The notes beneath the pieces are model-generated. The model had not been told where the DNA came from. It ran no database searches and saw only the letters and a list, made by a program, of their open reading frames with translations. Source: Bradyrhizobium sp. WBAH42 (GTDB lineage Bacteria > Pseudomonadota > Alphaproteobacteria > Rhizobiales > Xanthobacteraceae). Taken from it: a stretch of DNA of 64,000 bases. Position numbers and translations under genes: made by a program. Shown piece after piece: positions 16,532-22,659 of the stretch. The stretch lies in assembly GCF_024585265.1 (NCBI RefSeq), contig NZ_CP036533.1, forward strand, positions 3,357,001 to 3,421,000, written 5' to 3'. Each line of letters starts with the position of its first letter. Within the stretch, counting starts at the first letter, position 1.

Positions 16532-17311
16532 TCAGGGACGTACGGCCGGCGTTTCCATCGGCAGGCCACGGGCCCGCGACATCAGGTAAAGTTCGAGCGC
16601 GACCAGCTCGGGTGAGCCGTAATCATAGGCCTGGGCGCGGACCCCGCTCATGCAGCTGCGCAACCGGCGCTCGATCGACCCCAGCGTCTGCCACTCCAGG
16701 CGGTAGAGCGGATAGCCGGTCGGCTGCGCTTGCGTGATCGGGGCGCCGGCGAGGCGCTTGTCGAAATTGTCGTCATGGCAATTGGTGCAGGCAAGGTTGA
16801 GTTGGCCTTCGCGCTGCATGAAGAGGTCGCGGCCCTGGTCGACGAATGGCTTGAGCTGCGGATCGTCGCCTGCGGTGATCGGAATGCCGCGTGACTCGTG
16901 GCCGACGAAGGCGGACAATGCGAGCAGGTCGCGGCTCTCGTAGGGCAGCGGCGTCGCCTGCTGGTGATTGGCGCGGCAGAGATTGATCCGCTGATCGAGC
17001 GTGATTGGGCGCCCCAGCGCCTTGTCGAAGGCGGGGTAGCGCGCCGCGACGCCCTTCATGCTGCTGCGCGCATCGCCATGACAGTCCGCGCAGGCCTTGT
17101 CGGCGGTGCCGATCGTCTTCTTCCACAGCTGCTCGCCGTCGAGCACGAACAACATGCCGGGATTGGCGGTGTCGTCATCCTGCATCGCGCGCGTGTCCGG
17201 ACCCATGAACGAATAGCCGGAGCGGCGCGAATCCGACGGGATCTCTCCGGCGAGCAGGGCGGGGCCCGTGGCGAGCAATATCGCCGCCGCTATCGCACGC
17301 CAAGAGCTCAT
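16532..17311 (-). CDS. soxA: Sulfur-oxidation dihaem cytochrome SoxA
   Basis: A 259-residue periplasmic protein with a signal peptide (cleavage near LLAGE). Two haem c motifs are present: CADCH at residues 74-78 and CTNCH at 175-179. Cys220 in RRLRSCMSG is the expected active-site haem ligand (the cysteine persulfide position), followed by the family tail LPMETPAVRP. With SoxX it would form SoxAX, which oxidatively conjugates thiosulfate to SoxY. The start overlaps the soxZ stop (ATGA). A 79-bp gap separates it from the ABC importer. Confidence 0.9.
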   Translation of the reverse strand: MSSWRAIAAAILLATGPALLAGEIPSDSRRSGYSFMGPDTRAMQDDDTANPGMLFVLDGEQLWKKTIGTADKACADCHGDARSSMKGVAARYPAFDKALGRPITLDQRINLCRANHQQATPLPYESRDLLALSAFVGHESRGIPITAGDDPQLKPFVDQGRDLFMQREGQLNLACTNCHDDNFDKRLAGAPITQAQPTGYPLYRLEWQTLGSIERRLRSCMSGVRAQAYDYGSPELVALELYLMSRARGLPMETPAVRP

Positions 17312-17625
17312 TCGACCGTGATCGATGCCGATGCGGTGGACGAATAGCCGTTGTCGCCGATCCACTCGAACTCGAACTTGCCGCTCTCCTTGGCGACCGT
17401 AAAGAACGACAAATATGGGTTCGCCGCGATCGCCGGAAACAGGTCGGCGCGAAAGATCTCGGCGCCGTTGTAGCGGCAGACGAAGCTCGTGATGATGTCG
17501 CGCGGCACGAGCTTGCCGTCCGCGGTATGGCGGAAGCCTGTTTCCATGATGTGCGAGGTCAGCGTGCGAATCTCGATGATCTCGCCGCGTTTGGCTTTCG
17601 AGGGAACGTTGATGAGAGCGGACAT
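17308..17625 (-). CDS. soxZ: Thiosulfate-oxidation carrier-complex protein SoxZ
   Basis: A 105-residue protein with the normal SoxZ layout: an N-terminal PSKAKRGEIIEIRTL and a beta-sandwich containing RADLFPAIAANPYLSF. There is no signal peptide, as usual, since it travels with SoxY through Tat. It scaffolds the SoxY swinging arm in the periplasm. It is coupled to soxY (TGATG) upstream and soxA (ATGA) downstream. Nothing looks degenerate, which contrasts with the altered C-terminus of its SoxY partner. Confidence 0.92.
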   Translation of the reverse strand: MSALINVPSKAKRGEIIEIRTLTSHIMETGFRHTADGKLVPRDIITSFVCRYNGAEIFRADLFPAIAANPYLSFFTVAKESGKFEFEWIGDNGYSSTASASITVE

Positions 17626-18092
17626 CAGTTCAGCTCCTCGGTGCATGCCGCCAGCGTCACGACGATTTCGGCGGCAACCTGCCAGAACGTGTCGTCTGAC
17701 AGGCGCGCGATCGCGACGACCTTCTGGGTGTCGGCGAGCCGGATCCGGGTCGAGACCTGGGCTCGGCCGGAAGATGGGCCAAAATAGAAATTGCCGATGT
17801 TCGGCTGCGGGTTCTTTTCGTTGAAGACGTGGATGCTCTTGATGTAGTCGTCCGCCGTCATCGGGCTCGTCACGCTGACCGTCATCGGCACCGTGTTGCC
17901 GTTCTCGACCAGCGGCGGAATGTCGAGCTTGACCCGGCCGCTGCGAAGCTGTGCTTCGCCGACGACGTTGCGGATCGCGGTGTTGAGCATCGCCGGCGTC
18001 GCTTGAATCGGGCGCAGCGTTACGATTGGAATCGTCCCGGCGATTGTCACGCCTCCGGCGAGGTTCAAGAATTGTCGTCGCGTGGTTGGCAT
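17625..18092 (-). CDS. soxY: Divergent SoxY sulfur-carrier protein lacking the GGCGG motif
   Basis: A 155-residue protein with a Tat signal (TTRRQFLNLAGG) and a SoxY domain (KLDIPPLVENGNTVPMTVSV; FNEKNPQPNIGNFYFGP). In the family, the substrate is carried on the cysteine of a C-terminal GGCGG arm. Here the chain ends AACTEELN: Cys150 is present at the end of the last strand but has no flanking glycines, and five residues follow it. The flexible arm is therefore missing or altered. The reading frame is intact and coupled to soxZ, so this looks like a functional variant rather than decay. Whether Cys150 still carries sulfur is unknown. Confidence 0.85.
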   Translation of the reverse strand: MPTTRRQFLNLAGGVTIAGTIPIVTLRPIQATPAMLNTAIRNVVGEAQLRSGRVKLDIPPLVENGNTVPMTVSVTSPMTADDYIKSIHVFNEKNPQPNIGNFYFGPSSGRAQVSTRIRLADTQKVVAIARLSDDTFWQVAAEIVVTLAACTEELN

Positions 18093-18096
18093 GAAA

Positions 18097-18633
18097 CTAG
18101 TCCCGAAGCGTTGCAAGAAATGAGACGATGTCTTCGATCTCCGCAGCCGACAAGATTGGCTTCCCGGCAAAATTGCGTCCGATCCGAAAGAGGCCGTCGT
18201 TACGATAATAGGACGGCATGATGGTCTCCGGATTGAAGCGGGAGGCATCGACCAGTCGGAGCCGCAACTGGCTCACGGACCACCGGTTCCCGGCACCGCC
18301 GAGATCAGGCGCGAGGTCGCCCTGGAACCGCGTTTCCGGGAATGGGCCGGAATGGCAGAGGATGCAGGTCGTCGTGCGTGCGAGCACCAGCGCGCGCCCG
18401 CGCGCAGCATCGCCGGGTGAGCCTGTGAGCGAGTCGGGAATGCCGTCGCCGACGATTGTGTAGGGCACGAGCTCTTCGGCTTGGGTCGGCAAGGCGAGGG
18501 CGAGGCTTGCCACGATGAGCGCGGCGATCGCAGCTACCGGATAGGATGGCTGAGGTCGCCGCGAGCTCCACTTACCTCTCCCGCTTGCGGGAGAGATCGG
18601 CGCGCAGCGCCGGGTGAGGGCTCTTTCCATCAT
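18097..18633 (-). CDS. soxX: Sulfur-oxidation monohaem cytochrome SoxX
   Basis: A c-type cytochrome with one CILCH haem motif (residues 90-94 from the chosen start) and NPETIMPSYY supplying the axial Met. This is the SoxX pattern, and soxYZA follow. The signal sequence (VAAIAALIVASLALALPTQA) is clear, but the start is not. The only ATGs in frame lie ~30 codons upstream, inside a palindromic repeat, which gives a charged leader. A GTG inside the signal peptide seems too short. The stop is 4 bp from the soxY start, and the fccB stop lies just upstream. Confidence 0.82.
   Translation of the reverse strand: MMERALTRRCAPISPASGRGKWSSRRPQPSYPVAAIAALIVASLALALPTQAEELVPYTIVGDGIPDSLTGSPGDAARGRALVLARTTTCILCHSGPFPETRFQGDLAPDLGGAGNRWSVSQLRLRLVDASRFNPETIMPSYYRNDGLFRIGRNFAGKPILSAAEIEDIVSFLATLRD
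18576..18625. repeat. Palindromic repeat at the fccB-soxX junction
   Basis: CTCTCCCGC-TT-GCGGGAGAG is a perfect 9-bp dyad followed by GATCGGCGCGCAGCGCCGGGTGAGGGC, written here as two parts: the GCGC-rich block and GGTGAGGGC. This is a frequent Bradyrhizobium intergenic element. It overlaps the apparent 5' end of soxX and may supply its start codon. Confidence 0.7.
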
Positions 18634-18637
18634 GGCC

Positions 18638-19906
18638 CTAGCCAAAGGTGTCCGCCGTGATGGTCTCAAACCAGCGCTCCGCTTCCGTGGCCTCGCGGGC
18701 GCGCAATTCGCGCGGTGCATCGACCGGGCTGGTGCCGCCCTCGACCTCGGCAAAGATGTCGCCGCGCGGCTGGTAGTGGCCGGCGAGCGAGAAGCCGTAG
18801 CCTGGCGCGACGACGTTGTAACAGACGCCGGTCAGGCGTGGCGTGTCCGGCGCGCGGCCGGCGAGGAGATTCACGATCGCGCTAGCGCAAGCCTTGCCTT
18901 GCGCGCTCGCAGCGGACGCCGATTTGGGAATGCCGCCGCCGAGGCAGGCATCGCCAACGACGTGGACGTTCGGAACGAGTTTTGACTCGAACGTGACGGG
19001 ATCGATCGGGCACCAGCCCGTCGCGTCCACAACGCCTGCGACGCCGGCGATGCGCCCCGCGCGCTGCGGCGGGATGACGTTGGCGACATCAGGGGTGTAG
19101 TTGCCGAACTCGGTGACGATGGTTCGCGTCGTCGGATCGACCGAGGTGACGCGGCCGCCTTGCGACAGTGCGACGCGCTCGATCATGTCGCCATAGAGCT
19201 CCTTCCACGCCTTCTCGAACAGCCGCTGCTGCGAGAACGCGTCCTTGGCGTCGAGGATCAGAACTTTCGAGCGCGGCTTTCTCGACGTCAGGTAATGCGC
19301 GATCAGGCTCGCGCGCTCGTAAGGCGCTGGCGGGCACCGGGAAGGATTGGCCGGGATTGCAATGGCGACCGTGCCGCCGTCCCCCATCGCTTCCAATTGC
19401 CGGCGCAGCAAAAGAGTCTGAGCGCCCGCTTTCCAGGCGTGCGGCATCGTCTCCGACGCGGCCTCGTCGTAGCCGGGCAGGGCTTCGAGATGGAAGTCGA
19501 TGCCGGGCGAGAGCACGAGGCGATCATAGCCAACCGTGGTGCCATCGCCCGTCGTCACACGGCTCGTTTGCGTGTCGATGCCCGCCGCAGCCTGGGTGAC
19601 GATGCTGATCCCCCCGGCGGCAAGCTTGTCATAGCCGAACTGCTGCGCCTCGATCTCGCGCAGGCCCGCGATCACCTCGTTGCTGAAGGGGCAGGAGACG
19701 TAGGTCTTGTTCAGCTCGATCAGGGTGACCTGCAATTTTGCATCGGCGCGCTTGAGCGCGCGGGCGCAAGCCGCGCCGCCAAAGCCGCCGCCGACCACGA
19801 CGACGCGCCCCGCCGATTGCGCGCGCAGGATCGAAGGTGCGGCGAGCGATGTGGCCGCGACGGCGATGCCGAGAACGGCATTCCGCCGCGTCACCGGCGC
19901 ATTCAT
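18638..19906 (-). CDS. fccB: Flavocytochrome c sulfide dehydrogenase flavoprotein subunit (FccB/SoxF)
   Basis: A 422-residue periplasmic flavoprotein with a Tat signal (VTRRNAVLGIA...) and an FAD-binding GGGFGGAACARAL. Redox-active cysteines lie in TYVSCPFSNE and near GVCYNVVAPGYG, and the family's C-terminal domain is present. It oxidises sulfide to sulfur or polysulfide and normally passes electrons to a cytochrome c subunit. No fccA is adjacent; SoxX or SoxA could accept the electrons (inference). It heads the soxXYZA run, and no soxB, soxCD or soxV is in the window. Upstream in-frame ATGs give a leader without signal-peptide character, so the start at 19906 is preferred. Confidence 0.88.
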   Translation of the reverse strand: MNAPVTRRNAVLGIAVAATSLAAPSILRAQSAGRVVVVGGGFGGAACARALKRADAKLQVTLIELNKTYVSCPFSNEVIAGLREIEAQQFGYDKLAAGGISIVTQAAAGIDTQTSRVTTGDGTTVGYDRLVLSPGIDFHLEALPGYDEAASETMPHAWKAGAQTLLLRRQLEAMGDGGTVAIAIPANPSRCPPAPYERASLIAHYLTSRKPRSKVLILDAKDAFSQQRLFEKAWKELYGDMIERVALSQGGRVTSVDPTTRTIVTEFGNYTPDVANVIPPQRAGRIAGVAGVVDATGWCPIDPVTFESKLVPNVHVVGDACLGGGIPKSASAASAQGKACASAIVNLLAGRAPDTPRLTGVCYNVVAPGYGFSLAGHYQPRGDIFAEVEGGTSPVDAPRELRAREATEAERWFETITADTFG

Positions 19907-19927
19907 GAGACCTGTCCGGAAAATGCT

Positions 19928-19950
19928 GCGGCGGCCGGTATGGCCGCCGC
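19928..19950 (-). terminator. GC-rich hairpin after the molybdenum oxidoreductase operon
   Basis: GCGGCGGCC and GGCCGCCGC form a perfect 9-bp stem with a 5-nt loop. On the minus strand it is followed by a short AT-rich CAGCATTTT. It probably ends the molybdopterin oxidoreductase transcript before fccB. Confidence 0.55.
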
Positions 19951-19964
19951 GATTTGTCGTTTGA

Positions 19965-20009
19965 GCATGACCTTTTCGGAAAACCGCTCCACACTTTTCC
20001 TGATCATGC
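19965..20009. repeat. GCATGA...TCATGC palindromic repeat
   Basis: Arms GCATGA and TCATGC enclose CTTTTCGGAAAACCGC and ACACTTTTCC blocks. This is a widespread Bradyrhizobium/Rhodopseudomonas intergenic element. It lies directly beyond the stop of the molybdopterin subunit gene. Confidence 0.7.
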
Positions 20010-20010
20010 T

Positions 20011-22197
20011 TTACGCGAAGGTGATGTTCTGGTCGCGCAGCGGCACCTGGCGGATGCGCTTGCCGGTCGCGGCAAAGTACGCATTCAGCACCGCCGGGGC
20101 CGCGACGCCGATGGTCGGCTCGCCGACGCCGCCCCAGAATCCGCCGCTCGGCACCATCACCGTCTCCACCTTCGGCATCTCGTTGATGCGCATCGAATTG
20201 TAGGTGTCGAAGTTGGTCTGCTCGATCTTGCCGTCCTTCACCGTGCAGCCGCCGTAGAACAGCGCGGAGAGGCCATAGACGAAGGAGCCGGCGACCTGTC
20301 GCTCCACCTGCGCCGGATTGACGACGTAGCCGGGGTCGGTGGAGGCGACGATGCGATGCACCTTGATCTTGCTGCCGTCGGTCACCGAGATCTCGGCGGC
20401 GCCGGCGACATAGCTGCCGTAGCCCATGACCTGCGCGATGCCGCGATAGACGCCTTGCGGCGCCGGCGTGGTCCAGCCGATCTTCTCGGCAACCGCGTTG
20501 AGCACCGCAAGGTGCTTGGGGTGGTTGCCCATCAGCTTGCGGCGGAATTCGAGCGGGTCCTGGCCTGCGGCCTGGGCGAGCTCGTCCATGAAGCATTCCA
20601 TGTAGATCGCGTTGTGATTGACGTTGACGCCGCGCCAGAAGCCGGGCGGGACGTGCGGGTTGCGCATCGCATGCTCGACCAGAAGGTTCGGCACCGAATA
20701 GCCGATCGCGGCTTCGCCGGATTGGGCGACGCCCTGGAATGCCGCGGGATCCATCCCGTTCTGCAACGCTTCGGGGCGGAGCGAGAACAGGATAGATTGC
20801 CCGGACAGGCGGTAGTGTAGGGCGATCAAATTGTTGTTGGCATCGAACGCGCCGGTCATCTTGCACTGGGTGATGGGGTGATACCTGCCGTGCGCCATGT
20901 CCTCTTCGCGCGACCACAACAGCTTGATCGGCGTGCCCGGCATTTGCTTGGCGATCATGACGGCCTGGCGGACATAGTCGGTCTGGCCGCGCCGGCCGAA
21001 GCCGCCGCCTGGCATCACCTTGTGCACGTCACACTTTTCGGCCGGCAGGCCGGACGCTTCCAGCACCGCTGCAAACGCCGCCTCGCCGTTCTGCGTGCCG
21101 CACCAGACCTCGCATTTGTCCGCGGTGTAGAGCGCGGTGGCGTTCATCGGCTCCATGGTGGCGTGGTTCTGGTAGGGATAGGCGTAGACAGCCTCGACCT
21201 TCTTGGCGGCACCGGCAATCGCAGCCTTGGCGTCGCCGTTCTTGTTGCCGACATAGGCCGGCTGCGAATTGTCGAGCCCCTCCGCCAGCCATTTCGCGAT
21301 CGACTCGCTGGAAACCTTTGCGTTGTCGCCTTCGTCCCAGACGATCGGCAGCGCCTCGAGCGCGGTCTTGGCGTGCCACCAGGTGTCGGCGACGACGGCG
21401 ACCGCGGTGTCGCCGACCTTGACGACCTTCTTGACGCCTTTCATGCCGGCGATCTTGGCTTCGTCGAAGCTCTTCAGCTTGCCGCCGAACACGGGGCAAT
21501 CCTTGATCGCGGCGTTCAGCATGCCCGGCAGCTTGACATCGATGCCGTAGACCATCGCGCCGGTGGTCTTGTCGGCGGTGTCGAGCCGATTGACGCCCTT
21601 GCCGATCAGCTTCCAGTCTTTCGGATCCTTCAGCTTGACGTCCGCCGGCGGCGTCAGTTTCGCCGCAGCCTCGGCGACCTTGCCGTAGGTCGTGGTCCGG
21701 CCCGACGGCGTATGGGTGATGACACTGTTCTCGGCCTTGCATTCGGAGGCCGGCACTTTCCAGGCGTCGGCTGCGGCCTGGATCAGCATCACGCGCGCGG
21801 TGGCGCCGCCCTTGCGGACATAGTCTTGCGAGGAGCGGATGCCGCGGCTGCCGCCGGTGGAGAAATCACCCCACACGCGCTTGCGGGCGACGCTCTGGCC
21901 CGGCGTCGGATATTCGGTGGTGACCTTGGTCCAGTCGCATTCGAGCTCCTCGGCCACCAACTGGGCGAGGCCGGTCAGCGAGCCCTGGCCCATCTCCGAG
22001 CGGGCGATGCGAATCACCACGGTGTCGTCCGGCCTGACCACGACCCAGGCGCCGATCTCGGGCGAGCCGTCGGCCGCGCGGACCACGGCGGGGCCGCCGA
22101 AGGGGAGGTCGAGGCCGATGGCGAGGCCCGCACCGACCGCGGCCGTGCCAATGACGAAGGCGCGGCGATTGAGCCGCGGCGAGATATGCTTGTTCAT
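20011..22197 (-). CDS. Molybdopterin-binding aldehyde/isoquinoline oxidoreductase large subunit (IorB type)
   Basis: A 728-residue protein of the xanthine oxidase superfamily, in the short periplasmic class. The N-terminus has a Tat signal (RLNRRAFVIGTAAVG). Molybdopterin-binding landmarks are RSEMGQGSLTGLAQLVAEE (~residues 65-85), GGGFGRRG near 400 and the C-terminal GVGEPTIGVAAPAV with the catalytic Glu. Relatives oxidise aldehydes or N-heterocycles and donate electrons through a 2Fe-2S subunit to cytochrome c. The small subunit gene is 12 bp upstream. The substrate is unknown, and no cytochrome subunit is adjacent. Confidence 0.9.
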   Translation of the reverse strand: MNKHISPRLNRRAFVIGTAAVGAGLAIGLDLPFGGPAVVRAADGSPEIGAWVVVRPDDTVVIRIARSEMGQGSLTGLAQLVAEELECDWTKVTTEYPTPGQSVARKRVWGDFSTGGSRGIRSSQDYVRKGGATARVMLIQAAADAWKVPASECKAENSVITHTPSGRTTTYGKVAEAAAKLTPPADVKLKDPKDWKLIGKGVNRLDTADKTTGAMVYGIDVKLPGMLNAAIKDCPVFGGKLKSFDEAKIAGMKGVKKVVKVGDTAVAVVADTWWHAKTALEALPIVWDEGDNAKVSSESIAKWLAEGLDNSQPAYVGNKNGDAKAAIAGAAKKVEAVYAYPYQNHATMEPMNATALYTADKCEVWCGTQNGEAAFAAVLEASGLPAEKCDVHKVMPGGGFGRRGQTDYVRQAVMIAKQMPGTPIKLLWSREEDMAHGRYHPITQCKMTGAFDANNNLIALHYRLSGQSILFSLRPEALQNGMDPAAFQGVAQSGEAAIGYSVPNLLVEHAMRNPHVPPGFWRGVNVNHNAIYMECFMDELAQAAGQDPLEFRRKLMGNHPKHLAVLNAVAEKIGWTTPAPQGVYRGIAQVMGYGSYVAGAAEISVTDGSKIKVHRIVASTDPGYVVNPAQVERQVAGSFVYGLSALFYGGCTVKDGKIEQTNFDTYNSMRINEMPKVETVMVPSGGFWGGVGEPTIGVAAPAVLNAYFAATGKRIRQVPLRDQNITFA

Positions 22198-22209
22198 GTG
22201 AGGATTTCC

Positions 22210-22659
<450 letters not shown>

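Follow-up and report, generated by a model that had tools for sequence, protein, structure and literature searches.

A SoxY-type carrier with an alanine-cysteine arm travels with a molybdenum hydroxylase instead of SoxB

The operon and its altered carrier

The DNA analysed here is a stretch of 64,000 nucleotides from Bradyrhizobium sp. WBAH42 (contig NZ_CP036533.1, positions 3,357,001 to 3,421,000; hereafter the window), which holds a SoxY-type carrier with an unusual C-terminal arm. This carrier belongs to a row of seven minus-strand genes arranged head to tail in the order MoS-MoL-FccB-SoxX-SoxY-SoxZ-SoxA, where MoL and MoS are the subunits of a predicted two-subunit molybdenum hydroxylase (together MoLS). 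Judged by its gene neighbourhoods, the carrier travels with MoLS instead of SoxB. An earlier note on this DNA had omitted MoL and MoS (20011-22659), which head the same row upstream. The features are as follows; handles beginning with L, G and C denote our loci, genomes and contigs.

17625..18092, minus strand: SoxY-type carrier with AAC arm ("SoxY-related AACIE arm protein"; TIGR04487 222 bits, PF13501)
20011..22197, minus strand: MoL, molybdenum subunit of a xanthine-oxidase-family hydroxylase (PF02738, PF20256)
22210..22659, minus strand: MoS, [2Fe-2S] small subunit of MoL's enzyme (PF00111, PF01799)
17308..17625, minus strand: SoxZ partner (TIGR04490 83 bits, cut-off 76; PF08770)
16532..17311, minus strand: SoxA dihaem cytochrome with Cys220 (TIGR04484 233 bits; aligns with 1h31 and 2c1d)
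18097..~18579, minus strand, start not fixed: SoxX monohaem cytochrome (TIGR04485 69 bits, cut-off 61)
18638..19906, minus strand, start inferred from the reading frame: FccB, flavin subunit of flavocytochrome c sulfide dehydrogenase (PF21706, PF09242)

The carrier arm of canonical SoxYZ has been described (excerpt of PMC5336275). The GGCGG arm that ends canonical SoxY is not present in the window SoxY, a protein of 155 amino acids with a signal resembling those for twin-arginine translocation (Tat; judged by eye) and the C-terminal letters VVTLAACTEELN. In its place stands LAACTEELN, with Cys150 as the carrier Cys. The earlier note had described an intact frame coupled to SoxZ and ending AACTEELN with one Cys, and this is what we find, with SoxZ scoring over the TIGR04490 cut-off. 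The protein scores 222.4 bits against NCBIfam profile TIGR04487 (curated cut-off 172) and is therefore a member of that family, whose library entry names the arm type and neither a function nor a partner. Against the canonical SoxY profile TIGR04488 it reaches 107.3 bits, under the cut-off of 125. The system thus has in common with canonical thiosulfate Sox the PF13501 domain, the C-terminal Cys, the SoxZ partner and a SoxXA with Cys220, but it differs in its arm, in its TIGR04488 score, in a cluster without SoxB or SoxCD, and in an adjoining molybdenum enzyme of another family.

Conservation of the arm was assessed in the best 80 of 475 related loci in the genome collection, nearly all of which are labelled Bradyrhizobium. 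The ending is AACTE in 79 and AACTD in 1, so the conservation that the earlier note had proposed to look for in this genus is indeed found. Because all 80 loci end in this way, a sequencing error or frameshift that hides a GGCGG arm is ruled out. The Ala and Cys of the arm are also invariant in an alignment of 21 Ala-arm proteins, whose rows were picked for having such an arm. The AAC-arm SoxY is a genuine, conserved variant of SoxY, already catalogued as TIGR04487, and almost certainly a working one. In the open-access library searched, no function was found for TIGR04487 or AAC-type SoxY, and the term "AACIE" matched no paper.

The remaining genes retain the residues expected of their families. 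MoL has a Tat-like signal (by eye) and Glu693 within a GEP motif, and its best PDB match is 8gy3_C, the large subunit of an aldehyde dehydrogenase (E 1.5e-73), with which it can be aligned over ~720 residues with the GEP motif kept; unlike the 8gy3 chain, MoL is tied to SoxYZ. With molybdenum-binding domains, a [2Fe-2S] subunit and a catalytic-type Glu all present, MoLS is predicted to be a xanthine-oxidase-family enzyme. The stop of SoxY and the start of SoxZ share one base (17625), and SoxZ and SoxA overlap by four. SoxA scores above the curated TIGR04484 cut-off and carries the motifs CADCH and CTNCH; its Cys220 aligns with Cys222 of 1h31, which we take to be the haem-ligand Cys, catalytic and needed for sulfur chemistry. 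SoxX has the haem motif CILCH, and the three haems and Cys220 listed in the earlier note are thus all in place. FccB is matched over its length by 5n1t (E 2.7e-128), 3vrd and 1fcd, its best PDB matches, and has Cys64, Cys183 and Cys354, presumably the flavin-linking and redox Cys of an FccAB flavin subunit.

No FccA cytochrome gene is present beside FccB, since only ~0.1 kb (19907-20010) separates it from MoL, and none of the 80 close loci has an FccA-like match. Elsewhere such a gene does separate MoL from FccB, both in other taxa and at two loci from this genus (L171, L180). Among open reading frames of at least 100 amino acids in 28 loci, four groups were common to at least four loci; only the FccA-like cytochrome (9 loci) looked like an operon part, and the others were ATP-binding cassette (ABC) transporter, LysR-like and antisense frames (by eye). 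The ABC transporter and permease genes that adjoin the operon in the window were likewise rejected as parts, with weak, scattered 25-33% matches to the transporter genes outside the genus in the fetched loci.

The cluster contains neither SoxB nor SoxCD, and the earlier note was right that the window has fccB without them. Three SoxY-domain matches were found in the genome, a single contig of 8.29 Mb. A canonical-type SoxY ending VTVGGCGG lies at 429-433 kb in a separate soxXYZA cluster with SoxB, so both the second soxY and the soxB that the earlier note had proposed to seek are found. This SoxB (C1:431073-432776, outside the window) is the only one over cut-off in the genome. The soxXYZA-SoxB cluster is our locus L175 (G000:C1:429165-432776), yet the genome has no SoxC over cut-off, the best match scoring 177.7 bits against 420. 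The third SoxY match is a SoxYZ-fusion-like protein (L001 416-2211; G000:C1, ~6.755 Mb) with a GGC arm followed by an extension, and the gene adjoining it resembles a metallo-beta-lactamase-fold hydrolase (by eye).

Arm type and the neighbouring enzyme

MoL was found in 76 of the 80 close loci, the other four having less than 1.7 kb of sequence upstream of SoxY, and SoxB was found in none of them. A wider test drew on the class sample, from which most TIGR04487 hits were fetched with their flanks, ranging from members of the family to canonical SoxY; six genus-sample loci and L179 were added, and the weakest hits and most of the fused ones lie outside the counts. After removal of duplicates (L185-L214), one truncated row (L221) and three fusions, 102 unfused SoxY were left. 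Where Ala precedes the arm Cys (49 loci), MoL lies within 6 kb in 40, SoxB in none, and neither in 9. Where Gly precedes it (53 loci), SoxB is the neighbour in 38 and MoL in 1 (L232, arm ASGCI), with neither in 14. The single match among 53 Gly-arm loci indicates that chance MoL matches are rare. Of the 40 MoL beside Ala arms, 28 are at least 58% identical to the window MoL and 12 are distant (28-52%).

Twenty further loci came from the phylum sample: all seven with Ala arms have MoL and no SoxB, the 12 with Gly arms have no MoL and three SoxB, and one is a fusion. Four of the nine Ala-arm loci without adjoining MoL have a MoL in another place, either at the end of another contig after a contig break (L148, L043) or elsewhere in the genome (L162, L169). 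When only Ala-arm loci with 6 kb on both sides are counted (n=36), MoL is present in 31 and FccB in 21.

Co-occurrence was also counted by genome, with the two best MoL candidates per genome scored and the arm list read by eye. MoL of at least 60% identity is present in 31 of 385 class genomes (two as partial matches), and 30 of these 31 have an Ala-arm SoxY, as against 14 of the 354 genomes without such a MoL (Fisher p 8e-33, ignoring relatedness). The two genes are adjacent in 24 of the 31, and SoxB over cut-off is absent in 25. In the open-access library searched, we did not find this arm-partner rule reported.

Several loci depart from this arrangement in other ways. Six of them (L329, L333, L334, L335, L336, L339) combine SoxYZ bearing GGCAG or GGCVG arms with FccAB a few kb away and have no detected SoxB or MoL, possibly representing another partner type. 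In L184 and L231, SoxY extends 33 and 19 residues past the profile end after a GACVE arm and adjoins one or two MoLS pairs. L228 (G412:C61:1-14382) holds a tandem array of four MoS matches and three MoL, and no SoxY match is present in this locus.

Conservation, distribution and descent

Residue conservation was counted across Ala-arm loci, with 27 to 47 rows per protein. Both CxxCH motifs and Cys220 of SoxA are kept in 46 of 47 rows, and the remaining row (L220) is cut off; Cys112 is missing from two rows, and Arg residues close by are variable. SoxX has its haem motif and Met121 in 43/43, the eight MoS Cys are invariant in 43/43, and Glu693 of MoL is kept in 45/46 (one gap, L168). In FccB, Cys64 (26/27), Cys183 (27/27) and Cys354 (26/27) are missed only in rows cut by contig ends. 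The retention of these haem, Cys, iron-sulfur and Glu residues argues against decay.

L281 has MoLS and SoxYZ with no SoxX or SoxA detected within 6 kb, and no SoxX was detected in L217, L219, L220 and L222, the last three of which are cut by contig ends; detection used one query per protein, so divergent copies may be missed. Since some distant loci lack detected SoxX or SoxA, MoLS plus SoxYZ would be the smallest common core. L215 points the opposite way, with MoLS and SoxXA in the absence of SoxYZ. There (11412-12612 of L215; G163:C1:2346301-2366300) the order is MoS-MoL-SoxX-SoxA, SoxX being followed directly by SoxA with the rest intact, and the haem motifs and SoxA Cys are kept despite the loss of SoxYZ.

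TIGR04487 scores over cut-off in 79 of 98 sampled genus genomes, 21 of 385 class genomes and 15 of 398 phylum genomes, in samples that overlap. SoxB occurs in 94 of the 98 genus genomes, whereas none is over cut-off in 18 of the 21 class genomes with TIGR04487, some of which are only 82-90% complete. Four of the seven phylum-sample Ala-arm loci come from one genus outside the class with genomes of 1.7-2.1 Mb, and the SoxY of L322 has the same sequence as a protein recorded under the name Polynucleobacter. The operon also occurs on plasmids of Neorhizobium galegae, where MoL was found by tblastn only and not in the gene table, and of Methylobacterium sp. NMS14P.

A SoxY tree was built without the arm, from 143 columns, and half of its inner forks are open. 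Most of one large group has Ala arms; a separate group of ten GACS/GACGG proteins (support 99) adjoins three SoxB-linked SoxY (support 91), and the GACVE pair forms its own branch (support 99). At its most parsimonious the tree needs six changes of arm and three of neighbour. Although the arm change would on this tree have arisen independently two or three times, that number was not adopted, given the 143 columns, the open forks and a pair test that is not significant. In the MoL tree, 42 rows including the window fall on one branch with local support of 100. Of these, 36 adjoin Sox genes; the other six comprise contig breaks, unlinked copies, and L216 and L218. SGAC, GACVE, GACS and GACGG arms are accompanied by MoL that are more distant.

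Interpretation and alternatives

Our best reading is a periplasmic Sox-derived carrier module whose processing enzyme has been swapped from SoxB to a molybdenum hydroxylase. The earlier note had suggested a Sox-type carrier system with a different substrate or chemistry. That suggestion gains from the conserved non-GGCGG arm, the different adjoining enzyme and the 18 of 21 genomes without SoxB; the picture of a Sox set merely missing parts gives way to a distinct operon headed by a molybdenum hydroxylase. The partner swap is well supported by gene neighbourhood, and its chemistry we infer. It is very likely that MoLS is the partner of the AAC-type carrier, and likelier still that this carrier works without SoxB.

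In the aligned proteins, the arm Cys is kept and the Gly before it replaced by Ala, and SoxXA keeps its haems and Cys220. Because these residues are kept, something is probably still loaded on the arm; because the Gly and SoxB are lost, the carried group is suggested not to be processed as in thiosulfate oxidation. MoLS would be the likeliest processor, as it is a more constant neighbour than FccB. As in the canonical Sox system, SoxXA would use oxidation to attach a sulfur-containing substrate to Cys150 through a disulfide, and SoxYZ would present it on the changed arm to MoLS. MoLS would then oxidise the carried group with water, electrons would exit via the 2Fe-2S clusters to c-type cytochromes, and FccB, with FccA where present, could oxidise leftover sulfide or persulfide. 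That MoLS acts on the carried group is quite possible, if somewhat doubtful. More tentative is the scheme as a whole, a carrier-tethered pathway in which SoxXA loads an organic sulfur compound, the molybdenum enzyme oxidises the carbon so held, and the Gly or Ala tells whether SoxB or a molybdenum hydroxylase is the partner. Xanthine-oxidase-family enzymes act on carbon, and for this reason we favour an organic sulfur compound as the substrate, which is a guess that we hold a little more loosely again.

A number of observations weigh against this interpretation. L232 has MoL despite Gly before its Cys, and five GACS-arm loci (L275, L277, L279, L283, L284) have no MoL within 6 kb, which is unexplained. 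Among the 31 close-MoL genomes, a contig break intervenes in two (G190, G168), MoL is unlinked in two (G188, G224), SoxY lies beside another, more distant MoL in two (G466, G389), and G163 has no SoxY match, keeping MoLS and SoxXA after SoxYZ loss. Ala-arm genomes do not avoid SoxB (10/44, versus 29/341 of the others). Relatedness inflates the arm and neighbour counts, and an independent-pairs test on the SoxY tree was not significant (2 pairs on starred branches). Finally, excerpts of PMC3797975 describe in Starkeya novella a second cluster, soxX2Y2Z2A2F2, with a xanthine-oxidase-family molybdenum enzyme (Snov_1975/1976). It has the same gene kinds and no SoxB or SoxCD, a likeness of gene content in one organism. 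According to these excerpts, its SoxXA and SoxYZ were undetected in chemolithoautotrophic, methylotrophic, heterotrophic and mixotrophic extracts and one FccAB-like subunit was detected at low level; the authors suggested no functional significance, allowing for other conditions.

The roles could also be reversed, with SoxYZ and SoxXA serving MoLS. MoLS would oxidise a free periplasmic substrate such as an aldehyde and SoxXA would take the electrons, while SoxYZ would hold the aldehyde as a thiol adduct or deliver sulfur to maintain the Mo=S ligand outside the cytoplasm. MoL is indeed most like an aldehyde dehydrogenase large subunit (8gy3_C), and the cytochrome subunit that the 8gy3 enzyme presumably has of its own is without counterpart here, so SoxXA could stand in. 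L215 retains MoLS and SoxXA without SoxYZ, and another SoxYZ-like family, TIGR04557, is named for a link with quinoprotein dehydrogenases. However, the loci without detected SoxX or SoxA (L281; L217, L219, L220 and L222 for SoxX) indicate that SoxXA is not a constant part, and SoxA retains Cys220, which we assume sulfur chemistry needs; we consider this reversal unlikely. A sulfide or persulfide module is less likely again. In such a module FccB would hand sulfane sulfur to the SoxY arm and SoxXA would oxidise it, the molybdenum enzyme being a co-regulated passenger. FccB does match solved sulfide dehydrogenases (5n1t) and keeps its three Cys, but it is absent from 15 of the 36 Ala-arm loci with both flanks, versus 5 of 36 for MoL, and of the two neighbours a passenger would be expected to be the less constant.

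It is very improbable that the operon is a spare thiosulfate Sox set borrowing SoxB from the canonical cluster. SoxB is available elsewhere in this genome and in nearly all sampled genus members, and Ala-arm class genomes have it in the proportion given above. But with SoxB over cut-off lacking in 18 of the 21 TIGR04487 genomes of the class sample (a few of them only 82-90% complete), supply from elsewhere is ruled out as a general solution, and SoxB lies within 6 kb of none of the 49 Ala-arm SoxY. In B. diazoefficiens, which has two soxY, soxY1 of locus I alone is essential for thiosulfate (excerpt of PMC5748708). We presume that the dispensable soxY2 of this species is of the AAC type. We saw no evidence of close orthologues acting as standard thiosulfate carriers; evidence of that kind is what the earlier note had named as overturning its view. 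The operon might instead be a functionless duplicate in decay, which would fit the low or absent expression under the S. novella conditions tried (excerpts of PMC3797975), but conservation of haem, Cys, iron-sulfur and Glu residues across 43 to 47 loci makes this barely credible, as does the presence of the operon in four 1.7-2.1 Mb genomes of one genus (one being Polynucleobacter by identical protein) and on plasmids of two genera.

The proposed swap of SoxB for a molybdenum hydroxylase also bears on how sox genes are read. Their presence is widely treated as a sign of thiosulfate oxidation. Because the AAC type is common in the genus and present in Polynucleobacter, an operon that may have another role could lead to its genome being counted among those of thiosulfate oxidisers. 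In a survey of SoxY from 2024, sequences that lacked "GGC" were discarded as being of poor quality (excerpt of PMC11237559), and AAC-type SoxY would not get past such a filter. If the carrier does feed the molybdenum hydroxylase, enzymes of this kind would have a new mode of operation, and the idea can be tested directly on a single compact operon whose hosts can be cultured.

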